From the NCBI GenBank assembly GCA_023374025.1, contig SIJG01000074.1, positions 445,253 to 509,252 of the forward strand: 64,000 nt of DNA. The letters are read 5' to 3'. Position numbers and translations under genes: made by a program. The stretch is from Heterodera schachtii. Lineage: Eukaryota; Nematoda; Chromadorea; Rhabditida; Heteroderidae. The notes beneath the pieces are model-generated. The model saw nothing but the letters and a program-made list of their open reading frames with translations, had not been told where the DNA came from and did not search any database. Shown in pieces: positions 40,537 through 59,956 of this stretch. Numbering within the stretch: position 1 is the stretch's first letter; each line of letters opens with the position of its first letter.

Positions 40537-40542
40537 GCCATC
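40537..40542. other. Maverick target site duplication, left (GCCATC)
   Basis: GCCATC directly precedes the AGTAG terminus and is repeated at 59,951-59,956. Six base pairs is the duplication size characteristic of Maverick/Polinton integration. Confidence 0.92.
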
Positions 40543-41260
40543 AGTAGTTACCCACTCCATTTTGTCCGGATTACGGTAGCCCCCCATACCTATGGGATGG
40601 CTGCAGGCCAACTGAGCGCCAGCCATTTGAGCGCCAGCCAAGTGAGCGCGGGCCATTTGAGCGCCAAAATTTTCAGTACCGAAGCCAAAACCTATTGCGC
40701 GACTTTTTTTCAAGTGCGCGACTTTATGCAAATTATTGATTTTTTCTTGCAACCCAAGCCTATTGCAGGGGGTGCGCGACTTTTTTCTTACTGCGCGACT
40801 TTTTTCTTACTGCGCGACTTTTTTTTTTTTTTTTGCTGCGCGACTTTATGCAAATTATTTTATTTATTTTAATTTAATTTTTAATTAATTTTTAAACATC
40901 TTAAAGGTCAAACATCTTAAGACACTGACTTTAAAGTCATTTAAAATTCATCAAAAATTCCCCGCACCGAGCGGATCCGAACCCCGATGGGGCGGCCAGG
41001 CTGACGCACTAACCACTCGGCCACATTGGCAATGGATCATAAACATTAATTTGCTCTCATAAAGGGAAAAAATGACGTCACCAGCGGGGGGAGGGGGGCG
41101 AGAGCGTGCGGCGAGAAGGCGGGAGGCGGGGTCAAATAAACAAATCAATTATGAAGGGGGCGGGGTGTTGGAACGGTGCCAAATAAACAAATCAATTTTT
41201 TCGTGCCTTGTGGTGCCGCCCTCCCTCCCGCACACTCATTATGTAATTTGACACCTTCAG
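40543..41260. repeat. Maverick left inverted terminal repeat
   Basis: It mirrors 59,060-59,950. Sub-repeats inside include GAGCGCCAGCC blocks (about 40,614-40,670) and TGCGCGACTTTTTTCTTAC blocks (about 40,690-40,850). A tRNA-like sequence follows at 40,960-41,030. Matching weakens beyond about 41,100 but short blocks pair to about 41,260. Confidence 0.9.
40960..41030 (-). other. tRNA-Ser-like pol III promoter sequence in left TIR
   Basis: Read on the minus strand, TGTGGCCGAGTGGTTAGTGC matches the D-arm/A-box of eukaryotic serine tRNAs, and GGTTCGGATCC is one base from the B-box consensus, about 30 bp later. The acceptor ends do not pair, so it is tRNA-like rather than a tRNA gene. The copy in the right repeat points in the opposite direction, and both point outward. 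Confidence 0.6.
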
Positions 41261-42894: not shown

Positions 42895-45800
42895 ATGAGC
42901 CAATTTTCCGACGATTCCCTCCCCCCTACCCTCGATGGGCCTTATTCCCCTGTTGGGAATGATGGAACCGAATTGATGGACGACGCCCCGCCTCTGGAAG
43001 AAGTCATTAAGCACTTGCCAAATACCGTACGTTTTGCGAAATGTCTTTAAATTTTTTCATCTAATTTTGCGAGGTCTTTTCAGGTTGTGCCGTCTGAAGA
43101 GAATGAACGAAAGGCCCACAAGGAACCATCAATAACTCGCGAATTGGACGCCGAATTGTTCAACAGTGATAACTTTATGTGTTTGTCCGCCGCGCAGGCG
43201 GAAGCGGGGCGGTTCAAAGGTGTGGTTGTAATCACAACAATTTTTTAATTTTAAAATTTCTAATTTAATTAATTATTCATTTTATGCTGTAAAAAGTATA
43301 TTAAAAATTTTTTAAATTTGTATTTTGATTAATTGAGGTTTTTAAATGATTTTAGCGTTTCGATTCATTGGCCAATTTTTGATGAGCTTAACGTTCGGCG
43401 CTGTTTTCCCGGAAGAAATCCTACGCAATTTGTTCACGATGTGCCTTAATTATGCCGCCGAGGGTGCCGAATCGATGAAACTTTCGGCCGACCACTTCAT
43501 TTTCCTCTTAACGTCAAAACACCTTGACTACGAGGTTGCGGTTCATTTTAAAAAAATTGACAACACTGCAACTGAGAGGATTCTGACTCGCTTCGAGATG
43601 GTCGACCAAAGCAACAAAGCGAAGGAAAGGCCCTCCCTCCTCGAAGAACCCTTTGTAATTGACATCACGGCAATCGAGAGCAAGTGCGCCAAACCGAAAA
43701 TGGCTGGAAAAGGGAGAAACGACTTCAACGTTGACTATCGTATCGCCGATGGTGCAACTTATGAGATGCAGAACAACGACAACCTTTGCCTTTTCCGGGC
43801 GTTTGAAATGCTGCGAATGAAATGCGTTTTGCCCCGACAACGCTTCTCTGAGTATAAGAGGGATGAGAGAAAGCAGCTTGAAGGCGTGCATGCTTTGGGC
43901 CGGGGATGCAACATTGACATGAACCTGCCCTTCTATTCCATAGAGGAATACGGAGAAAGAATTCAGGCACAAAAAAAAAAAGCTTATTCTTTGTAAGATT
44001 TATCTTTAAGGATTATTATGAGGTGCTACATCCCGGAATGTTTCGGCTTTTTTGCTTTGAGACGTTTGGCAAAATGAAGCCTTCGTGGAAATCAACAGTG
44101 GAAAACTATAAAAATGAGCTTTGCGTTATTTTTATCGAAGGCGAAAACGGCGGTGAAGGGCATTACGACCCGGTTAAAAATGTTGGAAAACTTTTCAGTG
44201 CCCGCAACTATTGTTTTGGGGTACACATAAAGATGACATATAAATTAAGTTAATTAAAATATATTACAGTGTGAGATGCCGTTTCATCAACAATCTCAGC
44301 ACACTTCAAAATGCAAATGGAAATGCCTCAATTGCCTGCGCGTTGGATCAGTTTTTCGAGGAAATTGCGCCCACGCCAATGATGACTTTTTTGAGACCTG
44401 TCTGGGCTGCAATAAAGTAAAGTTTTTTGAGTTTCGTTTTAAAAATTTTGTTTAGACATTTAAAAGTCGTGAATGCTATGAACACCATGCCAAATGCACA
44501 AACAGCCGGGTCAAACGTGACAACGAAGAGCAAATTGTGGGAAAATCAATCTGCATGAGCTCGAAAAAATGTGTTGACTGTGGTGTGATTTACCGAATGG
44601 CGGTAGGTCTTGTATTTTAATATTCATAAAATAAAATAAATAATAAACATCACAGGACCAAGATAAGAAAAAGGGACATGTTTGCGGCCACAAATTCTGC
44701 AAGGTCTGCCTTGGTTTCCACGCGCCGCGCGATTGCTACATTCCATACCGGCCCAAAGTGAAGAAGGAGAAGCGCTTTGTCTTCTTTGACTTTGAATGCA
44801 CGACCGACTTTAAACCGGACCCGCAACTCATGCGGTTCAAACATCAGGTAAACATTTTTTGAGTCAGCAGTTTTAATTTGGAGAAATTCTAAGGTCAACT
44901 TCTGCTTCGCCCATGTGACATGCACTCGGTGCATCGAAAAGGGCATTTGGGACCAGGAACTGGACCGAGCTTGCGCGCTCTGCGGTCGCTTCCGAACATA
45001 TGCCTGGTCCCCGTTCGAGTTTTGGCACACGGACGTGGAGTGCCGTAAAGTCGTCGAAGACCCGCTGGCTGCCTTTACCAAGTGGTTGCTGAACTTTGAA
45101 ACGGAAGTGCTCGGCATGGAACCCGGAGCGAAGAAGCGCCGAAAGCGGAAGATTGCCGAGAACACGGACGCAGATGCCATGGAAGGTGAAGAGGACGAGG
45201 ATGCCGTGGATGAGGACGCCGAGAACAACTGGATGCTTGGGTACGACGAAGCCGGGGAAAAGCCGGAGTCGGTGACGACGTATGCATACGCGCACGCCGG
45301 TAAATTTGAAATTTTAAAAAGAAAATAAATAAATTTTTTTAAAGGGTCCCGCTATGACCATGTGCTGATTTATGGTGAAATGCTGCGCATGGGTGTCCGC
45401 CCTGAACTCATCCGCCAGGGCAACCATCTCCTGGAAATGAAGGCACGCAAAACGGGAGTGTACACAACCACCATCTTTCGCGACAGGTAAAAGTTTGAAT
45501 ATAATTATTTTTTAAATTTTTGATCGCTTTAGCTACAAACTGATCCCAATCAAATTGGCAAACTTTGTCAAGACGTTTGGCCTTGAAATTGAGGGTGTCG
45601 AAAACAAGAAATATTTTCCGCACAAATACAATAAGGTAAGGATAATTTCTAAATTAATTTAAAATTTAATAAAATTACAGGCGGAAAATTACGGCACTGT
45701 ATTGGACACTCTTCCGCCGATGGAGGACTACTATCCGGGTGGTCTCTTCCCGGCGGAGCGCGCAAAGTTTGAGCAATGGTATGACGAGAACCGGGAAACT

Positions 45801-48567
45801 GGGTTTGAGCTCAACGAAGTGATCGCGGACTACTGCAAGACAGGTATAATTTTTGTAAAAATATGCAAAAAATATTCAAAAAAATTTCGAAGATGTACAA
45901 ATCCTGGCCCATGGTATGGTAAAGATGAGGCAGCTGTTCTTGTCCGAGACGCGGCATGACATCACCGATTCGGTCACCATCCCATCTGGTTGCATGAAGT
46001 ATTGGGTGCAGCTGGCGCACCACGACAAAGAGCGAGTTGCCATCATCCCACACCTGGGTTATGAGAAGCGAGGCAAACAGAGCACTATTGCCAGGAAATA
46101 CTTGAAGGTGTGCCAAAAATTATTTTAATTTTACATTTTGCTGTTTCTCAGTGGCGTGCCGAAGAAGAGTTGCGGGAGAACGGGCGAGTCCTCCGCCATG
46201 TCGAAAGTCCTGGAGGGGAGTTCAAATTTGGCAACTACAGCTTGGACGGAATGATGGAGCGGCCGGACGAGGACAAAAATTTGGCCATCGAGGTCAATGG
46301 GTAAGGAAAAAATTCCGAAAATTTTGCCAATTTTCACTCCAAAAAGATGTTATTGGCACGGATGTCCAAGCTGCTTCCCCGATGATGCGGCAATTGTGGG
46401 CGGAGGAGAAACAGCCGGAGCCCTCAGGGCCCGCGATGCCAAGCGAACCCGGGACATTGCGCGGGAATTCGAGGTGGAAATCATCTGGGAGTGCCACCTG
46501 AACGCAATGCTGGAGGACAACCCTGCCATGAAGGCGTACTTCGACAATTGCCCGGATTCTGGACCAATTGATTTCCACGACGCCTTCTTTGGCGGTAACT
46601 TTACCATTTAAATTTTTTAAAATAATTTTGGCACAGGTCGAACTGGGCCCGAGTATTTGGGCGCTTCGGTGATCAACCCTGAGACGGGCGACTGGAAAAG
46701 CCGAACAATCAAAGTGAAGGACTTTAACAGTCTTTACCCGTCGCGGTAAGAAATGCCGGAAAATTAATAATTTAAAAATCTTTGTCACTTTAAGGAATAT
46801 GTTCACCAATTACCCGGTTGGCCACCCGACCGTGGTGCAGTTTGACAAGGACGTCGAATGGTCCTGTCCAGAGGACATTGTCGGCGACGACGGCATCCGC
46901 CTTGAGGGCATCATCAAGTGCTTCGTAGTGCCGCCCCGCCACTGTCACTACGACATCCCGGTCCTTCCGTACCGGCTCAACAACCGCACGCTGTTCCCTC
47001 TGTGCCGTACCTGTTCGGAAATGTACCCGCGCGGCTTGATCGACCCCGAGTACAACTGTCCCCATTTCGAGGACTCTGAAAGGGGTGGGTTTAGAAATTT
47101 ATAATTAAGCAATTATTTATCTTGGTAGGATTTTCGACAACGGTCACGCACATTGAGCTGGAGGCCGCTCTCCGCTCGTGGTACAAGGTGACGCATGTGT
47201 ACCGTGCCTACATCTGGCGGTTTGCGTGCGATTGGAGCAATGGGCTGTTCCACTCGTACCTGCTGAAGTTTCTCAAAATGAAATTTGAAGGTAAAATTTG
47301 AAAAAATCAATAAAATTAATCAACAAAAATTTAAGCAAGCGGGTACCCGGCTTCGTGTACGGAGGCGGGGATCAGCGAGGAGGAGTCGGCACGGAGGAAG
47401 CAGGACCACATCGACAAGGCAAAACAAAAGGCCCAAGTCCATCTGGAGGCGGACCGGATCAAGCACAACCCAGGACTTCGCTACCTGTCCAAGTTGTGTT
47501 TGAACTCGCTGTGGGGCCGGTTCGCACTTCGGTAAAATTTTTGGATAAATTTATGAAAAATTATATATAATCGTAAAGGAATCGCCTCACCAAAACCGAA
47601 ATCGTCGAGTGCCATGCGGAACTCGCCAAACTGCTGAACGACACGAAAATTGAGGTCAGCAGCATCGACCAGCTGACGGAAAAGTTTTGGATGGTCTGCT
47701 ACAAGGCCAAAGATGAGCATGTGGTGGAGCACAGCACGAGCAACGTAAGAAAAGTTTTAAATGTTTCAAAAAATAATTGAAATTTTCTCAGGTGGCCATT
47801 GCCCTATGGACCACCTCTGCTGCGCGAATCCACTTGCTGGAATCGCTGAAAAAGGTGTATGGTCCAGCACCGGGTGTAGAGCGCTACGACACCCGCATTC
47901 TCTACATGGTAAAATCTGGAAATGAAAATATGAAGTATTTTTTTAAATCAGGACACGGACAGCATCTTCTACGACTACCTGACGAGGCTGGGGGACCCAC
48001 TTCCGGGTGGCGAACAACTCGGGGAACTCGCCGACGAGTACCCGAATCACACCATCATGGAGTTTATTTGTGGTAAGATTCGTTAATAATTAAACACAAT
48101 AATAATAATAATAATAAAATGGAAATTTTTGTTTAGCTGGACCCAAGGCGTACGGCTTGTGGCTGCGCAACAACGCAACCGGGGAGGATGAGTACAAGTT
48201 GAAGGTGCGTGGGATCACCCTGGACTCGGATGCCTGCGAAAAGATGACCTTCGACAAGATGAAGGACATGGTTTTGAACAAGCTCGGCCAAGCGGACAAC
48301 AACGTCCGATTCAACTACCCGACGAAAAACTTCCGGATCACCAAGAAGGGAGAAATCTTCACCGTGCCCCTTGTCAAACAGTTCAACCCGACCGTCAATA
48401 AGGGGGTGATCAGGGACCACGGGTTGAAGGTGGTGCCCTTTGGGTTCAGCGACCAAGAGTGGTGTAAGTGGAACTGCCCAGGCGCTTGTTCATGTCTGTT
48501 CAACCCAGACCTCAATGTGAACCTGCTCACAGAAGAGGAGTTGAATGACCCCGATATTATGCCATAA
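42895..48567 (+). CDS. polB: Maverick protein-primed DNA polymerase B, 22 exons
   Basis: The exons are 42895-43026, 43084-43219, 43356-43966, 44011-44220, 44270-44416, 44456-44602, 44656-44847, 44894-45299, 45345-45486, 45533-45635, 45681-45843, 45893-46107, 46152-46300, 46347-46594, 46637-46745, 46795-47084, 47129-47290, 47336-47531, 47579-47744, 47792-47908, 47952-48072 and 48137-48567. All phases agree, giving 1,530 residues with no internal stop. The N-terminal third is the poorly conserved Maverick extension with a Cys-rich region. The exonuclease follows: FVFFDFEC (Exo I), AHAGSRYDH (Exo II, where Ala replaces the usual Asn) and YCKTDVQIL (Exo III). The polymerase has DFNSLYPS (motif A), LCLNSLWGRF (motif B) and MDTDSIF (motif C). 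It would copy the element by protein priming. Intron 3 appears to use a GC donor. It ends 39 bp from the convergent integrase. Confidence 0.95.
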
Positions 48568-48606: not shown

Positions 48607-49759
48607 TTATTCATTTATGTCTTCATTTGTCACCCAATATTTTTCAGGAAATCCAATAAATTTCACCAATATTTCTCTTTTTCCGTCTCTCACTCGTTCT
48701 TTGTATTTCTTTTCAATTCGAAACATTGTGTTTTCATCCACTTGTACTTTTGTTAATTCTGGCAAATAAAATTTTCTCTTCAACCTTGTGCCATAATAGT
48801 CTTTGAGCAAATAGTGCTGGGGGTTGGTTGAGCGGGCCTCATCCACGGTGTACACGTGATCAGAGTAATTGGGGATATAGCCTTAAAATTAAAATAAAAT
48901 TGATCGGAAAATGTGTGGGTTACAGTACCCTTCTCGAAAATGTGCTTAGTCTCGGGAATCCTGACCGTCTCCCCGGCCCTGATCTTTGGTTTCTTGTCCA
49001 AATGTGCGTTACCGTACACCCTCTTCCACACCTCCCTCGCATTTGTGTCGCTGATTTCGTTGGGTCTAAGTCCGGTCGCGCGGCACACCGAATTGTTTAT
49101 GGCACTCAAAAACTTTGGCACCACATCCACCCACACAGAAGTGTTGTTGGCGGAAAAATATTTGTACAGTCGGGTCTTCAGGGTGCGGATGGCACGCTCC
49201 GCCACGGCGGCCTTCTTCTTTGAACTGGTTTCAAACTTTTGAATGCCCTTCTCCGCGTAAAATTCCTTCAACGGTTTTGCCACAAATTCCAGTCCCCGAT
49301 CGGTGTACATTGTGTCCGGCACCCTTGGCATTTGTTCGAAAAGCTCCTCAAAAGCCCTTTTCATGTCCACTGGGCGCTTACTCTTTACGGGCGAGCCGAA
49401 CATTCGCCTCGATAGCACATCCACAGCCAACAGCAGGTACCGGTAGCCGCTGTTCTTGCGCGAAAGTGCTTGGAAATCGGCCAAGTCCGCCTGAACATCT
49501 GAAACCCTGAATTATGCGCAATAAGCCCCCATTACAATTCACCGGTCATGAAGCCCGTAGGCACAGTGCGTAGGCGTCGGAACTTCTCCCTCTTTGGCTT
49601 GAACAGCGTGTAGGTGGTGTTCCTCTGCAAAAAGTCCTCAAACTCGGCACGCTTCAACTTCGGGTGCTTCTTCTTCACCGCCGCGTACAGGGCACTCGCG
49701 CCCGCATACCCGCCTGGGTTGGCCGGGTCGGTGTATATTTTGTTTATCTTCTTGTCCAT
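48607..49759 (-). CDS. int: Maverick integrase with chromodomain-like C-terminus
   Basis: Three exons (49759-49543, 49498-48929, 48881-48607) give 353 residues. The N-terminal part matches Maverick integrases (NPGGYAGASALYAAVK, then YTLFKPKREKFRRLR). The DDE core shows DVQADLADFQ (first Asp), MYTDRGLEF (second Asp) and AVAERAIRTLK (Glu). The C-terminal ILVKFIGFPEKYWV resembles a chromodomain, which in related elements steers insertion to chromatin. The enzyme cuts and joins element ends to target DNA with a 6-bp stagger, agreeing with the GCCATC duplication. The start codon lies inside the last codons of the upstream gene. Confidence 0.95.
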
Positions 49760-50554
49760 CTTGAGGGAATAAATCGCGCGCTTTGTTTGACTTCTCCGGC
49801 ATGCCCCATCCGTCCCGATCCAACAAAGAAAGGGTTGAGGAGCCGACTGGCTTGCGGATCCTGTGCGAGTTTCTTCTTCAATTCTTTCGTTCCGCTTGGC
49901 GATGGGGCATTCTCCGGCCGAGGGTCCACCAGGCGTTCAATCGACCAGCCCAAGTCCGAGTCGATGAACTCTCGGCCCGTCTTTGGGTTGATGATTTGCC
50001 CACGTTCCGTTGCGCCGAATCTCTGCGGATCCGACATAATGATGGCCAATAGGTGGTCCTTCTTCTCGGTCAGTTTTTGCTGTTTAGCCGCTTTCTTATT
50101 GGTCCTGGGCGATCGGCTGCTTCCCGCCCTCAGGTTTATTGGCGTTAAAAACTTGGGCACATTAATCTCTTCCTCTTCATCTTCGTCGGTAATCAACACG
50201 GACTTGTCCATCGGCTCATCAGGACCAGGTCGTACCTGCACGCCCGTCTCAACCGTCTTATTTAGCAGTTGGGCACCGTTGCTGAGTTGTACCCGGACGG
50301 GCCGCTCCTTATGTTCCTTGCGCATCTTCAGGTATCGGCGCAGCTGCTGGTTGTACATTGCGTTCCGCTCGCTGACGTTTCCCTTCCGCTTCTGAGCTGC
50401 AGCGGTCACCTGTCGTTTGACAAAACCCAAGTTTGTCCGCTCAGCAATGTCGTCGTCGTCATTCTTGGTTTCTCTCGCTGCAACCAACCTTTCCCAACTT
50501 CTTCAAATAGTCGTAGTTGTGCACAACCCGCTCACCGATCTTCTGTTTAACCAT
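49744..50554 (-). CDS. Maverick charged protein of unknown function (apparent frameshift)
   Basis: An ATG at 50,554 overlaps the ATPase stop by 8 bp and opens a frame with KIGERVVHNYDYLKKLG, which ends after about 32 codons. A second frame, offset by one base and entered near 50,490, runs 240 residues to 49,744. It is rich in Lys, Arg, Glu and Asp (TDEDEEEEINVPKF, KDHLLAIIMSDPQRFG). The segment INPKTGREFIDSDLGWSIERL looks globular. I do not recognise the family. The break could be an assembly error, a mutation, or translational frameshifting at the AAGGTTGG region. The position between ATPase and integrase suggests a structural or DNA-binding role. Confidence 0.6.
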
Positions 50555-51243
50555 TTTTTGGGGCAAAAATGATTCTCTCCTCGTCGTCTGGGAAAATGTT
50601 TGTCCTTAGGCGTATAATGTTGTCTCTGTTCGCGTGAAGGGTCACGAGCAGGTAGCCGTACGGTAGGGCACATGCCTGTCGATAGGCATCCATCAGGAAT
50701 CCCTGCTCCCGAGGGAACATTTGACTTGCCAAATTACGGATGCTCAGCATGTCGTTGGGCGCCCGCATCAGGAAGATGTACTGGGCGTTGGACCTTGGCA
50801 CCCGCATTGACTTGTCAAACAGGTTTTGCGTGAGGAAAATCACGGAAAAATTGTTGTGGTGGGACTTTTTGGTGTACAGGTCTGCCAACTTCTTGGCCTC
50901 AATGTCACCCATCAAGTCATCGTACACAATCAAACAAGGTTTTGGCAGCTTTTTCAGCATTTCGTCAGACGGGGCACCCGCGTGAGGGACAACACCCTGG
51001 CGCTCCAGTTCGGGAATCTGCGCCGAGTACTCGCCATATGCCCACACTTAACAATAACATAATTGCACATTGAAACCCTTTTCACATACCTATAGCCTTG
51101 GGCGGCGGGTCAAACATCACGTTGGCGTGCCGTAACAGTCGAAGGACCAGCTGGGTCTTGCCCGATGAGGACGGACCGCTGACAATTATCCCCGAAGGGA
51201 TGGGAAAAGCGAGTTCACTTTCGTTTATTCTTGGGTAATCCAT
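50547..51243 (-). CDS. Maverick DNA-packaging ATPase (FtsK/HerA, A32-like)
   Basis: Two exons (51243-51090, 51046-50547) make 217 residues. Walker A is SGPSSSGKT (about residues 22-30) and Walker B is PCLIVYDDLM (about 87-96). NFSVIFLTQN follows as the sensor strand, and then RSNAQYIFLMR. The length and motif order match the small packaging ATPases shared by Mavericks, virophages and poxvirus A32. It would pump element DNA into preformed capsids, in agreement with the capsid and protease genes nearby. The intron is a standard GT-AG of 43 bp. Confidence 0.93.
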
Positions 51244-51277
51244 CAGAATAATAACAATAGAAAAAATGGACAAGTGC

Positions 51278-51730
51278 TTAGGGCATCTGGGTCGTTTCCT
51301 TCTGTTCTTTTACGGCTTTTTCTTCCAAGCTTGGGCCGGCGGCATGCACTTCCGGGTGTCGCAGCGGCAGAGTGAACACCTTGTTCCGTGCCCTTATGCG
51401 AAATTTCGCACGATCGGCAAAGTCCACTTAAGAAAAGGGTCAAGTTTTTGGCAAACACCTGTGCCGCTTACCAATTGTGTCAAACGGCACAAAGTTCTCG
51501 CCGTCCGTCTTTAGCCGATTCGAAAAGATGGTCACCCCCTCGGGCTGAATGATGTAGTCCAGCTCAACAGTTCCGCTTCTGCAGCATGAGCACCGCCCGG
51601 GCTGGTCCCATGGCACAAACCGAGGCGTTTGCAGGTGCCGTGGGCAGTACACCGTGACGCCCATTGTGTTGACGGCGAACTCAATCTCTGGGAATTCGCC
51701 CAACTTTTCCGATTGTCTTGCACGCTTCAT
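51278..51730 (-). CDS. Maverick 135-residue Cys-motif protein next to PAZ gene
   Basis: Exons 51730-51472 and 51426-51278 join in phase. The ATG is 3 bp after the PAZ stop codon, so the two are tightly coupled. Residues 28-53 contain VYCPRH and GRCSCCRSG, a possible metal-binding CxC or C-x2-C site. The rest alternates polar and aromatic residues (IQPEGVTIFSNRL, FVPFDTIVDFADR). I do not recognise the family, and it has no membrane segment. Its place in the cluster between PAZ and ATPase genes suggests it is expressed with them; a role with the PAZ protein is only inference. Confidence 0.75.
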
Positions 51731-51733
51731 TGG

Positions 51734-52274
51734 TCAGTAGAGTGTTGACTGCCACCCACTGCGAAAGTTCAAGTAGTCCAGGTAGTCCGTTTCAGCTGCA
51801 GGTCTTTCGGTGGGTTCACTCTCACAGCCCTCCTCAATGGCCAACAACTCTTAAGGGGATTTATTGATTTTTCCCGGACAAAATTTATACCCAGGGGGTA
51901 ATATTTGCAGTGGCCCTTGTTGTGGTACTCAACAATGCACTTGAGCTGAGGGTAGAGTAGGCGGATCCGGTGCTTTATGTAGAAATACTGGTGGACTTTG
52001 ACCTCTGAACGGGGATGAATAACACATTAATTTTTGGAAACTTGCCAAGAAATCCCTCAAAGGCGTAGGTTTCCGAGGCGGCTTTCAGCGAAAATGTGCC
52101 GAACTTGACCTCTTTAGTCTTGCAATCACGACCCTGGTAGGTTGTTTTGAGCTTTTTACCGGCCAGGTAGGCGTTCGCTTTGTTCACAGCCTCGGGGTTG
52201 TTCAAATATTCTGCTAAATTTTCTGGTTTACAGTTTAGCAGTTTGGATAGGGCAGCAGTCAGAGGGAGTACCAT
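51734..52274 (-). CDS. Maverick-encoded stand-alone PAZ-domain protein
   Basis: Three exons (52274-52046, 52004-51891, 51849-51734) give 152 residues. Intron 1 has a GC donor (G/GCAAGT) and intron 2 is GT-AG; with these, the phases agree. Residues about 25-121 fit a complete PAZ domain: YLAGKKLKTTYQGRDC (first strands), FSLKAASETYAFEG, then VKVHQYFYIKHRIRLLYPQL (the V-QYF---H-L-YP signature) and YYPLELLAI (the closing PLE motif). PAZ binds the 3' end of small RNAs in Argonaute and Dicer. Here there are no PIWI, MID or RNase III domains. The acidic tail (about 121-152) is unknown. It is the first gene of the minus cluster, with a 3-bp gap to the next gene. I infer capture from a host Argonaute/Dicer gene and a possible role in sequestering small RNAs. 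An unrelated RNA-binding role is possible. Confidence 0.85.
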
Positions 52275-53299: not shown

Positions 53300-55144
53300 A
53301 TGACAAACTCTTTCTTTGTAATTCTGCCGAGCAATACGCCAGGCTTTGTTGGAAATAAAACGAACAAATTCAAAGTGCACTTGCCAAAGAAGTTGGTGTT
53401 TGATGGGGCCGGGTGGATGGTTGGGCTGTCAGGCATAATTTACCCAAACAGGTGGGCGAAATCTAAGGCTATTGGGTCTGATTTTTGACTTAAGTTGGGC
53501 AAAGCTGGGTACATCGGACCGACAGTATGTGATTGTTCACCTGCACGATGGCAGGAAATACCGTTTCCGTGTGCCAAAGGGAAGCTTTCTCTCGCCACAG
53601 CAGCTTGAGAGGGGCATTCATCACGGCATGATTGCCGAGCTCGAGCGGCTGTTGACCCGAAAAAGGTCAGCACCGGTGCACACAAGTTTTGGCAACGCCG
53701 ACGATGATGAGGAGGAGGGCGAGATTCTTGACGTCTCGTTTGTTGAGGAGGAAGAAGAAGATACCGGCGAAGCGCCATTATATCCACTTTCAAATTTGAC
53801 CAAGCTCTCAGCGGAGCAAGAAACGCTAAGGCATGAAAAAAGGGCACAGGAAGAGAGAAGACGAAAGGAAGAGGAGCAGAGAAAACAGAGAGAAGCCGAA
53901 CGTAAACGGCGAGAGGAAGAGGAGAAGCGACGCAAGGCAGAAGACGATAGAAGGAAGGCTGCAGAGAAAACAGCGAAGGAAAAGAAGGCAAAGGAAGAGA
54001 AAGAGGCGAGTGAAAAGAAAGCAAGGGAGGAAAAATTGGCAAGGGAAAAGAAGACAGAAGAACAAAGGCTAGCGAAGGAAAAGAAAGGAGAGAAAGAAGC
54101 CTTGGGCAAAACGGCTGAGAAAGAGAGAGTGGCAAAGGCTGAGGCAGAGAGAACGGCAAAGGAAAGAAAGGCAGAGGAAGAGAGAGTGGCAAAGGCGGAA
54201 GCCGAGAGAGTGGCAAAGGCAGAGGAAGAGAGACTGGCAAAGGAAGAGGAGGAGAGAGCGGTAAACGAGACAAAGAAAAAGCAAGAAGAGGAGAAGCAGT
54301 CGGAAGAACTTAAACGACAGCAATTGGCCACAAGAAAGCAGAAAGAGTTGGAGCTGCTCAAAGAGTTCAGACCATGGCGAGGCGGGTACATGAGACTGGT
54401 GCACGGCAAAGACCCAACCCCTGACGTACATTATTTGCATGAAACGGATGACTATCATTTTGTGAATGCTGTGCACAAGTACCGTGTCCGCCACTCCGAG
54501 CTCCCCTGGGAGGCGCCCGAGTTTAACCCATCGGCGCACATTCAACAAAACATTGCGGAGTTCCGTGAGCTGTTTGAGCAAGAGGTGTACGACGAAAACT
54601 ATGCGGTGAAAACGCGAGAGGAAAAGGAGGAGCTGATTGAGCTGGTCAAAGGGTTCCGCTTTTACTTCACCGAACAAATTGGCCGATTTGAGCTCAAAGT
54701 TTTCAATGGGAAAATTTCGCACATTACGCTGACAGATCAGCTGGCCTACGTATTGGGCTATGAGCAAGAGCAGGAGATCAGAAATGAAGAGCTTGCAAAA
54801 TATGCGGTCGATTTGGGCGGAGGCGTAAGTCATCTGTGCATCTACCTGAACAGTGGCGTCATTGAGAGCATGATTGTCGGCAACACCTTTGCCAATCTGC
54901 TCCAAGTGATTGCCGTTGAGGGAAAATCGGGCAGTGTGGTGGAGAAGGACTTCCAGTCGCCGTTGTTTCACAAAATCATAGCAAGGGAGGTGGATGTGCT
55001 TGACGTTGAGATTCGCACTCTTACCGGGAGGTTAGGCTTTTCCGCTGGCCATTTATTTTTCTAATCACTTATTTAAGGGAGGTGCCATTTGAGTTTGGGC
55101 AAGTTGTGTTGACTCTTCAGTTTAAAAAGGTGTTGACGTTCTGA
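53300..55144 (+). CDS. Penton-like minor capsid protein with long coiled-coil insert
   Basis: Exons 53300-53451, 53495-55030 and 55078-55144 give 584 residues. The N-terminus has the Maverick minor-capsid pattern: FFVILPSNTPGF, then NKFKVHLPKKLVF, WMVGLSGIIYPN and, over the splice, SWAKLGTSD. About residues 120-295 are a highly charged Lys/Glu/Arg/Ala coiled coil (AKAEAERVAKAEEERLAKEE and similar repeats). The C-terminal part resumes normal composition (FYFTEQIGRFELKVF; YAVDLGGGVSHLCIYLNSGV) and ends VVLTLQFKKVLTF. The protein would sit at capsid vertices. Typical relatives lack such a long coil, so it may form a spike or internal scaffold. The next ORF starts 5 bp after the stop. Confidence 0.8.
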
Positions 55145-55664: not shown

Positions 55665-57052
55665 ATGTTGTATAAAAAAGTGGATGCATCAAGTGCTGAG
55701 GTGGCAAATGCGGGGCTAGACTTCTTCACCATACCCCCAACAAGCTGTGCAGTGTCCAACTCCAGCTACAGGGAGTACCTGACGCTGAACCCGATAAGCT
55801 CTAGGCCCTTTCATTTTAAGGTAAGCAATTTGCACATATAGTAGCAGGCATAATGTGGTTCAGATCCACCCAATCACCAGCTATGTGGACCTTAGCAAGG
55901 TGTTTGTGTGCACCGAGTTCAAGCTCAAAAAAGTGGCAGATGATGGGGTTGTGGTTGATGTGCCGGCAAACGCTGCAGTAGGCCTTATCCAAATGCCTGG
56001 CGCAACATTCATCCGGAACCTGAAAGTGCACATCAACCAGCGGGAGGTGTACGACTCAAATCAGCTGTACAGCTACAAGGTGTTCCTGGACACCGAGCTC
56101 AGCTATCCTGTGGCGGCAAAGGAAGCATACTTTGGCGTGGCAGGCTATTTCCGTGACAGTGACCCGACCAAAGTAAACGACAGACGGAAAAAGGCGGTGG
56201 AGGAGAGCAAGGGCTTTCAAGCGATAAGCAAACTGAGCGCCGACATATTCAACCAGGATTTGTACATGATCAGCAATGTCGAGATTGACATTGAGCTCGC
56301 CCTGCAGTCGGACGATTTTATGATACATCAGGAAGCCGCAAATAGGGACAAGTACACGCTTGAGGTTGTCGACTGCAGACTGATCGTGAAGACTGTTGAT
56401 CTGATGGACGGACTCAGCCTTGACATTGCAAAGAAGTTGGACATGGAACCCGCCAGATACGGCATTCGGAAAACGCTGATGAAGTCGCTGTTCATCACCG
56501 GAGGGCGATATGATTTTTCAGCCAATCTGTTCACCGAAGAAGTGCCCCGGAGAGTTATCATTGGGCTGGTGCCCAACCAAAATTACATTGGCCACAATCA
56601 GAAGAACCCCTTTTACTTCAATCACCACAATGTATGTACCGCTTTGGCAGTATTTATGGCACAAAAAAATTGTTCAGGTAAGGGACATTGAGCTGACCGC
56701 CTCTGGCAGGACATACCCACAGTTCCCGTACAATTTGGATTACAAAAACAACCGGTACGCTCGGGCGTACCATGACACCCAGGAGCACCTTGGCATGGCC
56801 TGCACAACGGAGAGCAACGGGATCAGCTACAGCATGTTCAAGACTGCCTATTGCCTGTATGTCTTCCAAATGACCAACTCGCAGGAGGACTCTCCTGGCT
56901 TTGAGCTGATCAAAGAGGGCTGTACAGCGGTGAACATTCGCTTTGCCGAAGCGGTGCCAAACGAGGGGGTCACCTTAATAGCATACGCCGAGTCTGACGG
57001 GCTCATTCTGATTGATCGGAACAGATCCATCACTAGTGACCTTACAGTATGA
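55665..57052 (+). CDS. Maverick major capsid protein (double jelly-roll)
   Basis: Exons 55665-55820, 55864-56631 and 56678-57052 give 432 residues in one phase. Features of the Polinton capsid family are visible: an N-terminal segment with NSSYREYLTLNPIS, a strand block with PGATFIRNLKVHINQREVYD, the landmark LYSYKVFLDTELSYPVAAK, then MEPARYGIRKTLMKSLFITG and RRVIIGLVPNQNYIGHNQKN-type text leading to NPFYF. Double jelly-roll trimers build the icosahedral shell of these virus-like elements. The stop codon overlaps the start of the next gene (ATGA). No disruption was seen. Confidence 0.92.
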
Positions 57053-57288
57053 GTGGTGAGAATTATTCCTCCGATTTTGTTCAAATGCCCTCCTCCAATG
57101 CTGTACATGAAGGAATTGTACTTTGCTTCCCGGACGTGATCGAGAAGTCGCCGATCAACTTTTTTCTCTGCCTCATCTACCTGTTTGGGGCAGCAGGCAC
57201 AGCGGTTGCGGGATTTTACCTGTTCTTGAGGGAGAGGCGGATTCGTCGCAGGAATGGACAATCGGTTCATCGACAGAACACTCTTTGA
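57049..57288 (+). CDS. Maverick small single-pass membrane protein
   Basis: 79 residues with one hydrophobic helix (FFLCLIYLFGAAGTAVAGFY, about 38-57) followed by a basic stretch (LRERRIRRRNG). The start overlaps the capsid gene stop as ATGA and the end overlaps the protease start, so it belongs to the same transcript block. A membrane or virion-associated role is possible. No family is recognised. Confidence 0.6.
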   Translation: MSGENYSSDFVQMPSSNAVHEGIVLCFPDVIEKSPINFFLCLIYLFGAAGTAVAGFYLFLRERRIRRRNGQSVHRQNTL

Positions 57289-57739
57289 GAACTCGGCAAC
57301 GAGAAAATTTTTTGCTGGCACATTCCCGGCCGATCGATTGCCAAAGTGCACGAAATTTCCCTGCAGTCTGATTGTCAATTTGGTAAGTGCCAAAAATACA
57401 TTAAAACAAAATTCGCCACTTAAGGACCCATCGGGAATGCCGGGAACCCATTGGTGCGCAATCTGGGGTCGTTCGCCGGGGGTGGCCTACTTTTTTGACT
57501 CGTATGGCGAGATGCCAAATGATCTGATCAAAAAATACTTGGCGAAAAATTTTCAAAAAATTTATTTTAATCGAAGAAAATTTCAATCGATTTTCTCCAA
57601 TGTTTGTGGTCATTATGTTTTAGTGTTTATTTATCTCATGTCCTTAGGATTCGATTTTGAATTTGTAATGCAATGTTTGAAAAGGACAAGTAATTCGGAT
57701 GAATTTGTTTATGAATTTGTGAAACGCAATATACAATAA
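57254..57739 (+). CDS. pro: Adenovirus-type cysteine protease of the Maverick
   Basis: Exons 57254-57382 and 57425-57739 give 147 residues. The catalytic set of the adenain family is visible: His52 in GTHWCAIW, Asp68 in YFFDSYGEM, Gln97 in KFQSIFSN and Cys104 in NVCGHYVLVF. The enzyme would process capsid precursors during virion maturation. It is somewhat shorter than adenovirus protease, as usual for Mavericks. It ends 19 bp from the convergent minus-strand gene. Confidence 0.93.
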   Translation: MDNRFIDRTLFENSATRKFFAGTFPADRLPKCTKFPCSLIVNLVSAKNTLKQNSPLKDPSGMPGTHWCAIWGRSPGVAYFFDSYGEMPNDLIKKYLAKNFQKIYFNRRKFQSIFSNVCGHYVLVFIYLMSLGFDFEFVMQCLKRTSNSDEFVYEFVKRNIQ

Positions 57740-59059: not shown

Positions 59060-59950
59060 TTTAAAGAAGTGGTGTCAAATTACACAAATGAGCAGGTGTG
59101 AGGGAGGGGCAGCGCAAAGATGTAAAATAAATTATTGGTCAAATAAACAAACGGTCAACACCTGAACGGGTGCTGTAATTATTTTTGAGCAGATAAAAAA
59201 GTAACAGACAAATCAATAATTAAAATATTTTATTAATAAAATACATTCAACAACAAAGGGTAAATTAACGTGTATAAAAATAATTAATGAGAAAAATAAA
59301 AAAGTTTAAAATTATTTGTTAATTTCTTCTAAAAATATTTATTATTATTGTACAAATAATAATTCGTTAATTAAACATTTTTATAATTAGTTTAATTCAT
59401 ATTATTTTTACCCCCCTCCCCCCTCTCGCCGCACGCTCTCGCCACCCGCTGATGACGTCAATTTTTCCCTTTATGAGAGCAAATTAATGTTTATGATCCA
59501 TTGCCAGTGTGGCCGAGTGGTTAGTGCGTCAGCCTGGCCGCCCCTCTGGGGTTCGGATCCGCTTGGTGCGGGGAATTTTTGATGAATTTTAAATGACTTT
59601 AAGTTCAAAGTCTTTGAACTTTAAGACGTTTAAAATAATTTAAAATTAATTTAAATTTAATTAAAAATTTGCATAAAGTCGCGCAGTAAGAAAAAAGTCG
59701 CGCAGTAAAAAAAGTCGCGCACCCCTGCAATAGGTTTGGGTTTGCAAGAAAAAATCAATAATTTGCATAAAGTCGCGCACTTGAAAAAAGTCGCGCAATA
59801 GGTTTTGGCTTCAGTACTGAAAATTTTGGCGCTCTAATGGCCCGCGCTCACTTGGCTGGCGCTCAGATGGCTGGCGCTCAGTTGGCCTGCAGCCATCCCA
59901 TAGGTATGGGGGGCTACCGTAATCCGGACAAAATGGAGTGGGTAACTACT
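59060..59950. repeat. Maverick right inverted terminal repeat
   Basis: Mirror of 40,543-41,260. It is about 150-200 bp longer owing to an AT-rich stretch at about 59,190-59,400 that is absent on the left. The outer 550 bp match well, including the TGCGCGACTTT blocks and the tRNA-like sequence. It ends GGAGTGGGTAACTACT. Confidence 0.88.
59503..59573 (+). other. tRNA-Ser-like pol III promoter sequence in right TIR
   Basis: TGTGGCCGAGTGGTTAGTGC (A-box like serine tRNA D-arms) is followed by GGTTCGGATCC (B-box like). The two repeat copies differ at only a few bases, for example CCAGTGTGG against CCAATGTGG. Acceptor pairing is poor, so it is a tRNA-like or SINE-like promoter and not a tRNA gene. 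It is oriented outward, as is the left copy. Confidence 0.6.
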
Positions 59951-59956
59951 GCCATC
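59951..59956. other. Maverick target site duplication, right (GCCATC)
   Basis: Same six bases as at 40,537-40,542, directly after the CTACT terminus. Confidence 0.92.

Follow-up and report, generated by a model that had tools for sequence, protein, structure and literature searches.

What does a PAZ domain that stands alone do inside a transposon, and does the gene really belong to the transposon? This question was raised by positions 51734..52274 of a 64,000-nucleotide (nt) stretch of the Heterodera schachtii genome (assembly GCA_023374025.1, contig SIJG01000074.1, positions 445,253 to 509,252), referred to here as the window, in which a first-pass annotation had read a PAZ protein encoded by a Maverick/Polinton. 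The assignment to a Maverick-like element was upheld by the family profile, the predicted fold, the conservation and the neighbourhood of the gene, and an rve integrase and long terminal inverted repeats were present in the element. The protein was predicted to be a stand-alone, Argonaute-type PAZ that binds the 3' ends of host small silencing RNAs and keeps them from Argonautes; on this prediction our judgement is evenly divided.

The proposed splicing, in which three in-phase exons including a GC-AG intron give 152 residues (aa), was supported by spliced translation, by an independent gene model and by sister copies. The Heterodera trifolii model P0001 was also 152 aa long, with 93% identity and 100% coverage to the window protein, and the sister copies kept GC..AG at intron 1. 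When 26 of the 29 window-type loci (defined below) were examined, this intron was GC..AG in 24 of 25 sisters (25 of 26 copies with the window's own), and the lone exception, L026, started with GT. The H. schachtii models P0002 and P0003 were without 22 residues at the end of exon 1, and the automated Heterodera models P0005 and P0006 likewise missed the end of this exon. These gaps probably reflect a gene finder that disallows a GC donor.

According to Pfam, the window protein carried PAZ (PF02170) alone, without PIWI or MID (E-value (E) 2.1e-7, 31.4 bits against a cut-off of 28.8, residues 28-123), and the PAZ fold was present in the predicted structure of P0001. The claim of a stand-alone PAZ without PIWI, MID or RNase III therefore stood; no RNase III match was found in the window protein or 57 relatives, the neighbourhood not having been searched with an RNase III profile. 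Those relatives formed the aligned set A3, hand-picked from 99 proteins found, and 55 of the 57 matched PAZ at E 0.01 and no other family. A chance motif was ruled out by profile, fold and conservation. A PDB search with the window protein as a single sequence gave Argonaute PAZ chains at E of about 0.005. With the family profile, 28 PDB sequences were matched at E 0.01, every one of them an Argonaute, so the domain leans, on sequence likeness, to the Argonaute rather than the Dicer type. A Dicer origin was not favoured by this list, which does not exclude it.

The residence of the gene in Maverick-like elements was explored across the 178.5 Mb assembly. The window protein gave 143 matches, and after exons within 1 kb were merged, 107 PAZ loci were obtained including the window's own, of which 29 had at least 60% identity (window type) and 78 had 30-48% (distant type). 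Sixteen profile-only loci, found by the profile and without a counterpart among the 143 protein matches, were picked by list comparison and added. As hallmarks, matches to three open reading frames (ORFs) of the window were used, those of the ATPase, the integrase and the putative capsid, and because they were taken from best-candidate lists the counts are lower bounds. At least one hallmark lay within 16 kb of at least 86 of the 107 loci (27 of 29 window type, 59 of 78 distant), and all three were found at at least 51; among the best-candidate matches, none lay within 16 kb of any of the 16 profile-only loci. The hallmark neighbourhoods covered about 2.6% of the genome, as computed on a reduced list that scores 85 of 101 loci with six retroelement loci set aside. 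No PIWI match (PF02171) was found within 8 kb of any of the 107 PAZ loci, whereas 7 of the 16 profile-only loci had one. A host Argonaute gene with missed domains was ruled out on this basis.

About five gene orders recurred among the PAZ loci. In the window type, PAZ, a small ORF, the ATPase and the integrase lay on one strand and the putative capsid gene was divergent. Two orders were colinear, the putative capsid match being followed at about 2-3.5 kb by the start of PAZ (e.g., C7:3225036 and C18:1319442). In another (C68:354072, C158:83140), PAZ lay on the opposite strand and about 5-9 kb past the match to the putative capsid, and in a further one PAZ was divergent from the ATPase and about 1 kb away from it (C3:1126775, C40:1217076). 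As a separate observation, window-type PAZ genes also occurred as inverted pairs spanning 5.7-7.6 kb (C7:2848696/2854437, C21:1834137/1840524, C30:1141608/1149204 and C136:83828/90179). The ATPase matches between the paired genes were interrupted or partial, and the C7 pair was enclosed by the terminal repeats of the window element. Hairpin RNA could arise from such palindromes.

The ratio of nonsynonymous to synonymous substitution (dN/dS) across copies, a comparison suggested in the first-pass annotation, was about 0.1 in the window type. The sum ratio for exons 1 and 2 was 0.10 (155 pairs, dS 0.03-1.5); it was 0.076 in the main group (75 pairs) and 0.165 in ten copies with an interrupted or partial ATPase match (35 pairs). 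Exon 1 alone gave a median of 0.12 over 113 pairs, with the window copy counted twice. Among the other PAZ types, values of 0.045 (L036/L008) and 0.09 (L041/L042) were obtained. The aligned copies thus indicate that the window-type PAZ is under purifying selection, and a neutral fragment was ruled out by dN/dS.

PAZ was also found in a second kind of mobile element. Six of the 143 protein matches sat in frames of 1419-3380 aa. On C3, a piece with Phlebovirus G1 and G2 matches (L071, G2 E 2.5e-30) and the adjoining PAZ piece (L040) were open in the same register, and on C81 the G2 match of the piece L075 (E 8.8e-60) stopped 143 bases short of the PAZ match. For L039, the PAZ score was 26.4 bits with Pfam, slightly under the cut-off, and 54.5 bits on the profile of Maverick relatives. 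A second group, L066-L069, comprised four of the 16 profile-only loci; its members, with 25 bits for L069, likewise missed the Pfam cut-off and reached 42-53 bits on the Maverick-relative profile. In this group, G2 (L073, E 6.4e-63) and the PAZ frame (L068) abutted in register on C77. The Pao peptidase PF05380 was matched upstream in L076 (166.5 bits, near the second C3 copy) and L077 (82.6 bits, C77), and integrase zinc-binding matches occurred in the upstream pieces as well. On the basis of these upstream matches and of G2 next to PAZ, both groups are assigned, from their domain content, to Pao-type retroelements with a phlebovirus-type envelope gene (env) and PAZ. The pieces lay on C1, C3, C77 and C81 (L039, L040 and L071-L077), with L066-L069 in addition.

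The pocket that would hold an RNA 3' end was compared with that of human AGO2, whose numbering was placed via a HMMER alignment. The available part of PMC5896489 names H271, R315, H316, Y311 and Y338 as contacts of the 3' overhang. In A3 (n = 57), the R315 position held R in 52 and K in 5 proteins, the Y338 position Y in 54 and F in 3, and the positions of H316, P340 and E342 held H, P and E in all 57. The window protein has Y at the Y311 position. In A2, a 17-row set holding more divergent types than A3, H316 was H in 17/17 and R315 was R or K in 17/17.

The tails following PAZ were rich in D, E and S, with D and E together making up 20%. Trp was the exact C-terminal residue in 33 of 99 relatives, of which 13 ended in Gly-Trp, and lay among the last 15 residues in 59 of 99. 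For comparison, none of 85 putative capsid proteins ended in Trp and 4 had Trp in the last 15 residues; both sets include incomplete proteins. The sole Trp of the window protein was at position 147 of 152, within Gly-Trp. Such a tail would fit a hook for Argonaute Trp pockets or an acidic-aromatic recruiting tail.

Action on the 3' ends of small RNAs is the simplest account of these results, because the R315 and H316 positions are kept, MID and PIWI are missing, the sequence is constrained and two kinds of mobile element carry the domain. Heterodera belongs to clade IV of the nematodes. In the accessible text of PMC4323106, clade IV nematodes are without PIWI, and clades III and IV are without PIWI-interacting RNAs (piRNAs) and appear to target transposons with small interfering RNAs (siRNAs) made by RNA-dependent RNA polymerase (RdRP). 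The same text describes abundant transposon-matching 5'-triphosphate small RNAs in Globodera pallida, with an antisense bias in the 20-26-nt ones that start with G. The PAZ protein may bind free 3' ends, most likely those of such RdRP-made 5'-triphosphate siRNAs matching transposons, and would thus be a sponge or end-blocker. The siRNAs it bound would be kept from the Argonautes that silence the element, which would be protected, and the Trp-containing tail may dock onto an Argonaute or another partner.

Several results weigh against this account. The L339 position was Y in 57/57 proteins of A3 and the H271 position was Y in 55/57; the Y311 position held H in 52, Y in 4 and F in 1; and the K335 position was changed in 45/57 (E 33, H 12). 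K in 38 and R in 4 at the R277 position also speak against a plain AGO2-like pocket, and in A2 the Y338 position was aromatic (Y or F) in 14/17 only. L339 is termed the pocket core in PMC7265490, as far as its available text goes, where F294A/L339A and the pocket mutation R315M go with more modification of exposed microRNA 3' ends; with this position changed, the ligand may be something other than a usual siRNA end. As judged by alignment, the 3'-end pocket is in part kept and in part altered family-wide. Moreover, the tail of the P0001 model was of low confidence and the window protein does not end in Trp. Among the best-candidate matches, 21 of the 107 loci had no hallmark within 16 kb, six of them the retroelement loci. 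For selection, the diverged pair L047/L052 gave a dN/dS of 0.52 and many distant pairs were saturated.

The altered pocket may also suit a different ligand, for example single-stranded DNA. Some phage single-strand-binding proteins recruit polymerase through an acidic-aromatic tail. It is accordingly conceivable, although unlikely, that the protein is a replication factor, its OB-like PAZ being reused to bind single-stranded DNA or DNA 3' ends and its tail to recruit the element's polymerase. The altered residues would suit such a factor, as would the D/E-rich tails (20%), often aromatic at the end, and a DNA polymerase B match (PF03175) lay within 16 kb of 41 of 72 distant-type loci (none of 29 window-type, six retroelement and 16 profile-only loci). 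DNA is able to bind AGO2 PAZ according to the part of a review that was available (PMC6361761). However, the two Pao-type groups that carry PAZ replicate otherwise, and the AGO2 R315 and H316 positions are kept. The indirect evidence for 3'-end sequestration would serve equally for a carrier that holds element or host small RNAs to tune its own expression, exclude rival copies or load particles; with some 100 related loci in a single genome, such cross-regulation among copies would be favoured, but MID and PIWI for guide use are missing, and we rate this role as a slim chance.

The tail might also be the active part, docking on Argonaute Trp pockets as a decoy with PAZ secondary. The frequent terminal Trp, against none in the putative capsid family, is in favour, and a viral suppressor that binds Argonaute via WG/GW motifs is described in the available portion of PMC2904775. 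The window type's Trp is not terminal, however, and the tails are poorly alignable; we regard a decoy as improbable. A captured fragment without function, or a part of an ordinary host Argonaute gene, is hardly credible as an explanation: some copies are damaged (L016 has three stops), but a dN/dS of about 0.1, the conserved introns, the lack of PIWI near any of the 107 loci and the repeated Maverick-type context contradict it. Sequestration of small-RNA 3' ends is retained as our preferred reading. A wider proposal is offered more tentatively, and we lean somewhat against it: nematode Mavericks and env-bearing Pao retroelements would each have converted the Argonaute PAZ of the host to a trap for small RNAs, either stand-alone or part of a polyprotein, in many relatives with an Argonaute-docking Trp tail, and whole Maverick lineages would have the gene in their core set instead of as cargo.

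The origin of the domain was followed through its relatives. The A2 profile search gave 98 proteins, including Heterodera, Globodera and Meloidogyne, with Ditylenchus in one short match. Residence in Mavericks was seen in this genome only, and the relatives elsewhere are known as proteins alone; P0009 (PAZ) and P0100 (putative capsid) came from 6,649-base contigs of the same source, which hints at a PAZ-capsid linkage elsewhere. Single-protein scans of IMG/VR viral contigs gave no PAZ relatives, and 0 matches at E of 0.001 or less were found among BFVD viral structures. In a 35-row tree, in which the ATPase-divergent type was absent, the supported groups were the C7 rows, the C18/C34/C9/C38 rows and the opposite-strand rows, the last including Meloidogyne P0031, P0040, P0048 and P0052 (support 97/96). 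The backbone was open, with retroelement rows and host rows both unplaceable, so no host source is claimed. This also applies to a likeness to host worm-type Argonautes in the N half (noted by eye as a G-L-T-x-R-G-A stretch in L003). Of the earlier suggestion that a host Argonaute or Dicer PAZ had been captured, the Argonaute type was favoured by the 28 PDB matches.

The features of the element are collected in Table 1.

Table 1. Features of the PAZ gene and the surrounding Maverick-like element (window positions).
Feature	Position	Strand	Basis or remark
Stand-alone PAZ gene	51734..52274	-	3 exons, 152 aa + stop; Pfam, spliced translation, P0001 predicted fold
PAZ gene exon 1	52046..52274	-	229 nt; spliced translation and sister copies
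PAZ gene intron 1, GC-AG	52005..52045	-	41 nt; starts GCAAGT, ends CAG
PAZ gene exon 2	51891..52004	-	114 nt; contains V-x-Q-Y-F-Y-I-K-H stretch
PAZ gene intron 2, GT-AG	51850..51890	-	41 nt; sister copies
PAZ gene exon 3	51734..51849	-	116 nt including stop; tail with Gly-Trp, W147 of 152
Small ORF	51440..51730	-	ATG 3 nt after PAZ stop; no family match above cut-off; beside other window-type PAZ copies too
Putative packaging ATPase, two open pieces	50547..51309	-	AAA_16, Adeno_IVa2 and Pox_A32 matches below cut-off
ORF, same cluster	49744..50502	-	Open frame
rve integrase and further open piece	48607..49511	-	PF00665, 38 bits against cut-off 32.6, in 48780-49511
Putative DNA polymerase B region, short open pieces	43346..48567	+	47335-47535 matches DNA_pol_B_2, E 1.2e-4, below cut-off
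Putative major capsid protein region, two open pieces	55825..57052	+	Not confirmed as capsid by profile or fold
Putative protease ORF	57230..57739	+	No family match
Left terminal inverted repeat region	40542..41122	+	40542-40709 98% and 40919-41122 87% complementary to right one
Right terminal inverted repeat region	59411..59951	-	59784-59951 and 59411-59614

The tightly packed cluster that PAZ had been said to head was borne out by the ATG of the next ORF, 3 nt beyond the PAZ stop. The terminal inverted repeats (168 nt at 98% and 204 nt at 87%) were 18-19 kb apart and enclosed the gene set. The 168-nt arm had 40 scored matches in the genome and is therefore a repeat in its own right. Besides C74, it occurred as an inverted pair around window-type PAZ loci on C38 (19.9 kb), C16 (10.9 kb) and C7 (17.5 kb), which supports it as an element terminus; other pairs, e.g., on C88 and C99, enclosed no listed PAZ locus. 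The putative capsid gave no Pfam match and no PDB sequence match, and its predicted model was poor (predicted local distance difference test (pLDDT) 46). The putative protease carries what we take to be an adenain-like protease pattern, and its one match in PDB was at E 0.32. A 541-aa open frame (53439-55064), which separates the PAZ cluster from the putative capsid gene, had a long charged stretch rich in Glu, Lys, Arg and Ala and no Pfam match.

No report of a Maverick-borne PAZ was found in the literature on PAZ with Maverick/Polinton, of which few subscription papers were covered. PMC11753138 and PMC10380595, which combine the two terms, are in their available parts not about a Maverick PAZ, and the word 'PAZ' has 0 occurrences in PMC11071308, PMC10680173, PMC13419823 and PMC11118728. 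Some relatives have the automated UniProt name 'PAZ domain-containing protein', with no Maverick link among those seen. Should the wider proposal hold, it would describe the first case of a silencing suppressor derived from the pocket with which the silencing machinery itself holds small-RNA 3' ends. A PAZ encoded by a transposon would directly counter the RdRP-siRNA pathway of clade III/IV nematodes and could help to explain the persistence of Mavericks and env retroelements there. The protein is small and foldable, and its ligand is testable in a single assay.

Compared with the Argonaute PAZ (human AGO1/AGO2; PF02170), the element's PAZ has no MID or PIWI alongside, and its family differs at L339, H271 and usually Y311 and K335 and bears an extra acidic tail often ending in Trp. 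The wosp proteases and krma kinases carried by nematode Mavericks, together with a putative fusogen, are likewise extra Maverick-borne genes; the accessible text of PMC10680173 describes wosp and krma as cargo that passes from species to species, whereas the PAZ gene was met again in several Maverick gene orders that diverge from one another. The VANC proteins of Arabidopsis VANDAL transposons are also transposon-encoded and counter silencing, but in the parts of PMC10398659 and PMC5735166 at hand they are sequence-specific anti-silencing proteins, whereas PAZ would act on the small RNA itself. The siRNA-binding viral suppressors (p19 and others) share the proposed role, as far as the sources at hand describe them, in that small RNAs are removed from silencing, which for PAZ is a prediction. 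Their folds differ from PAZ, and we know of no viral silencing suppressor made from a host PAZ. The proposed role is of a known kind, that of a small-RNA suppressor, in a new form.
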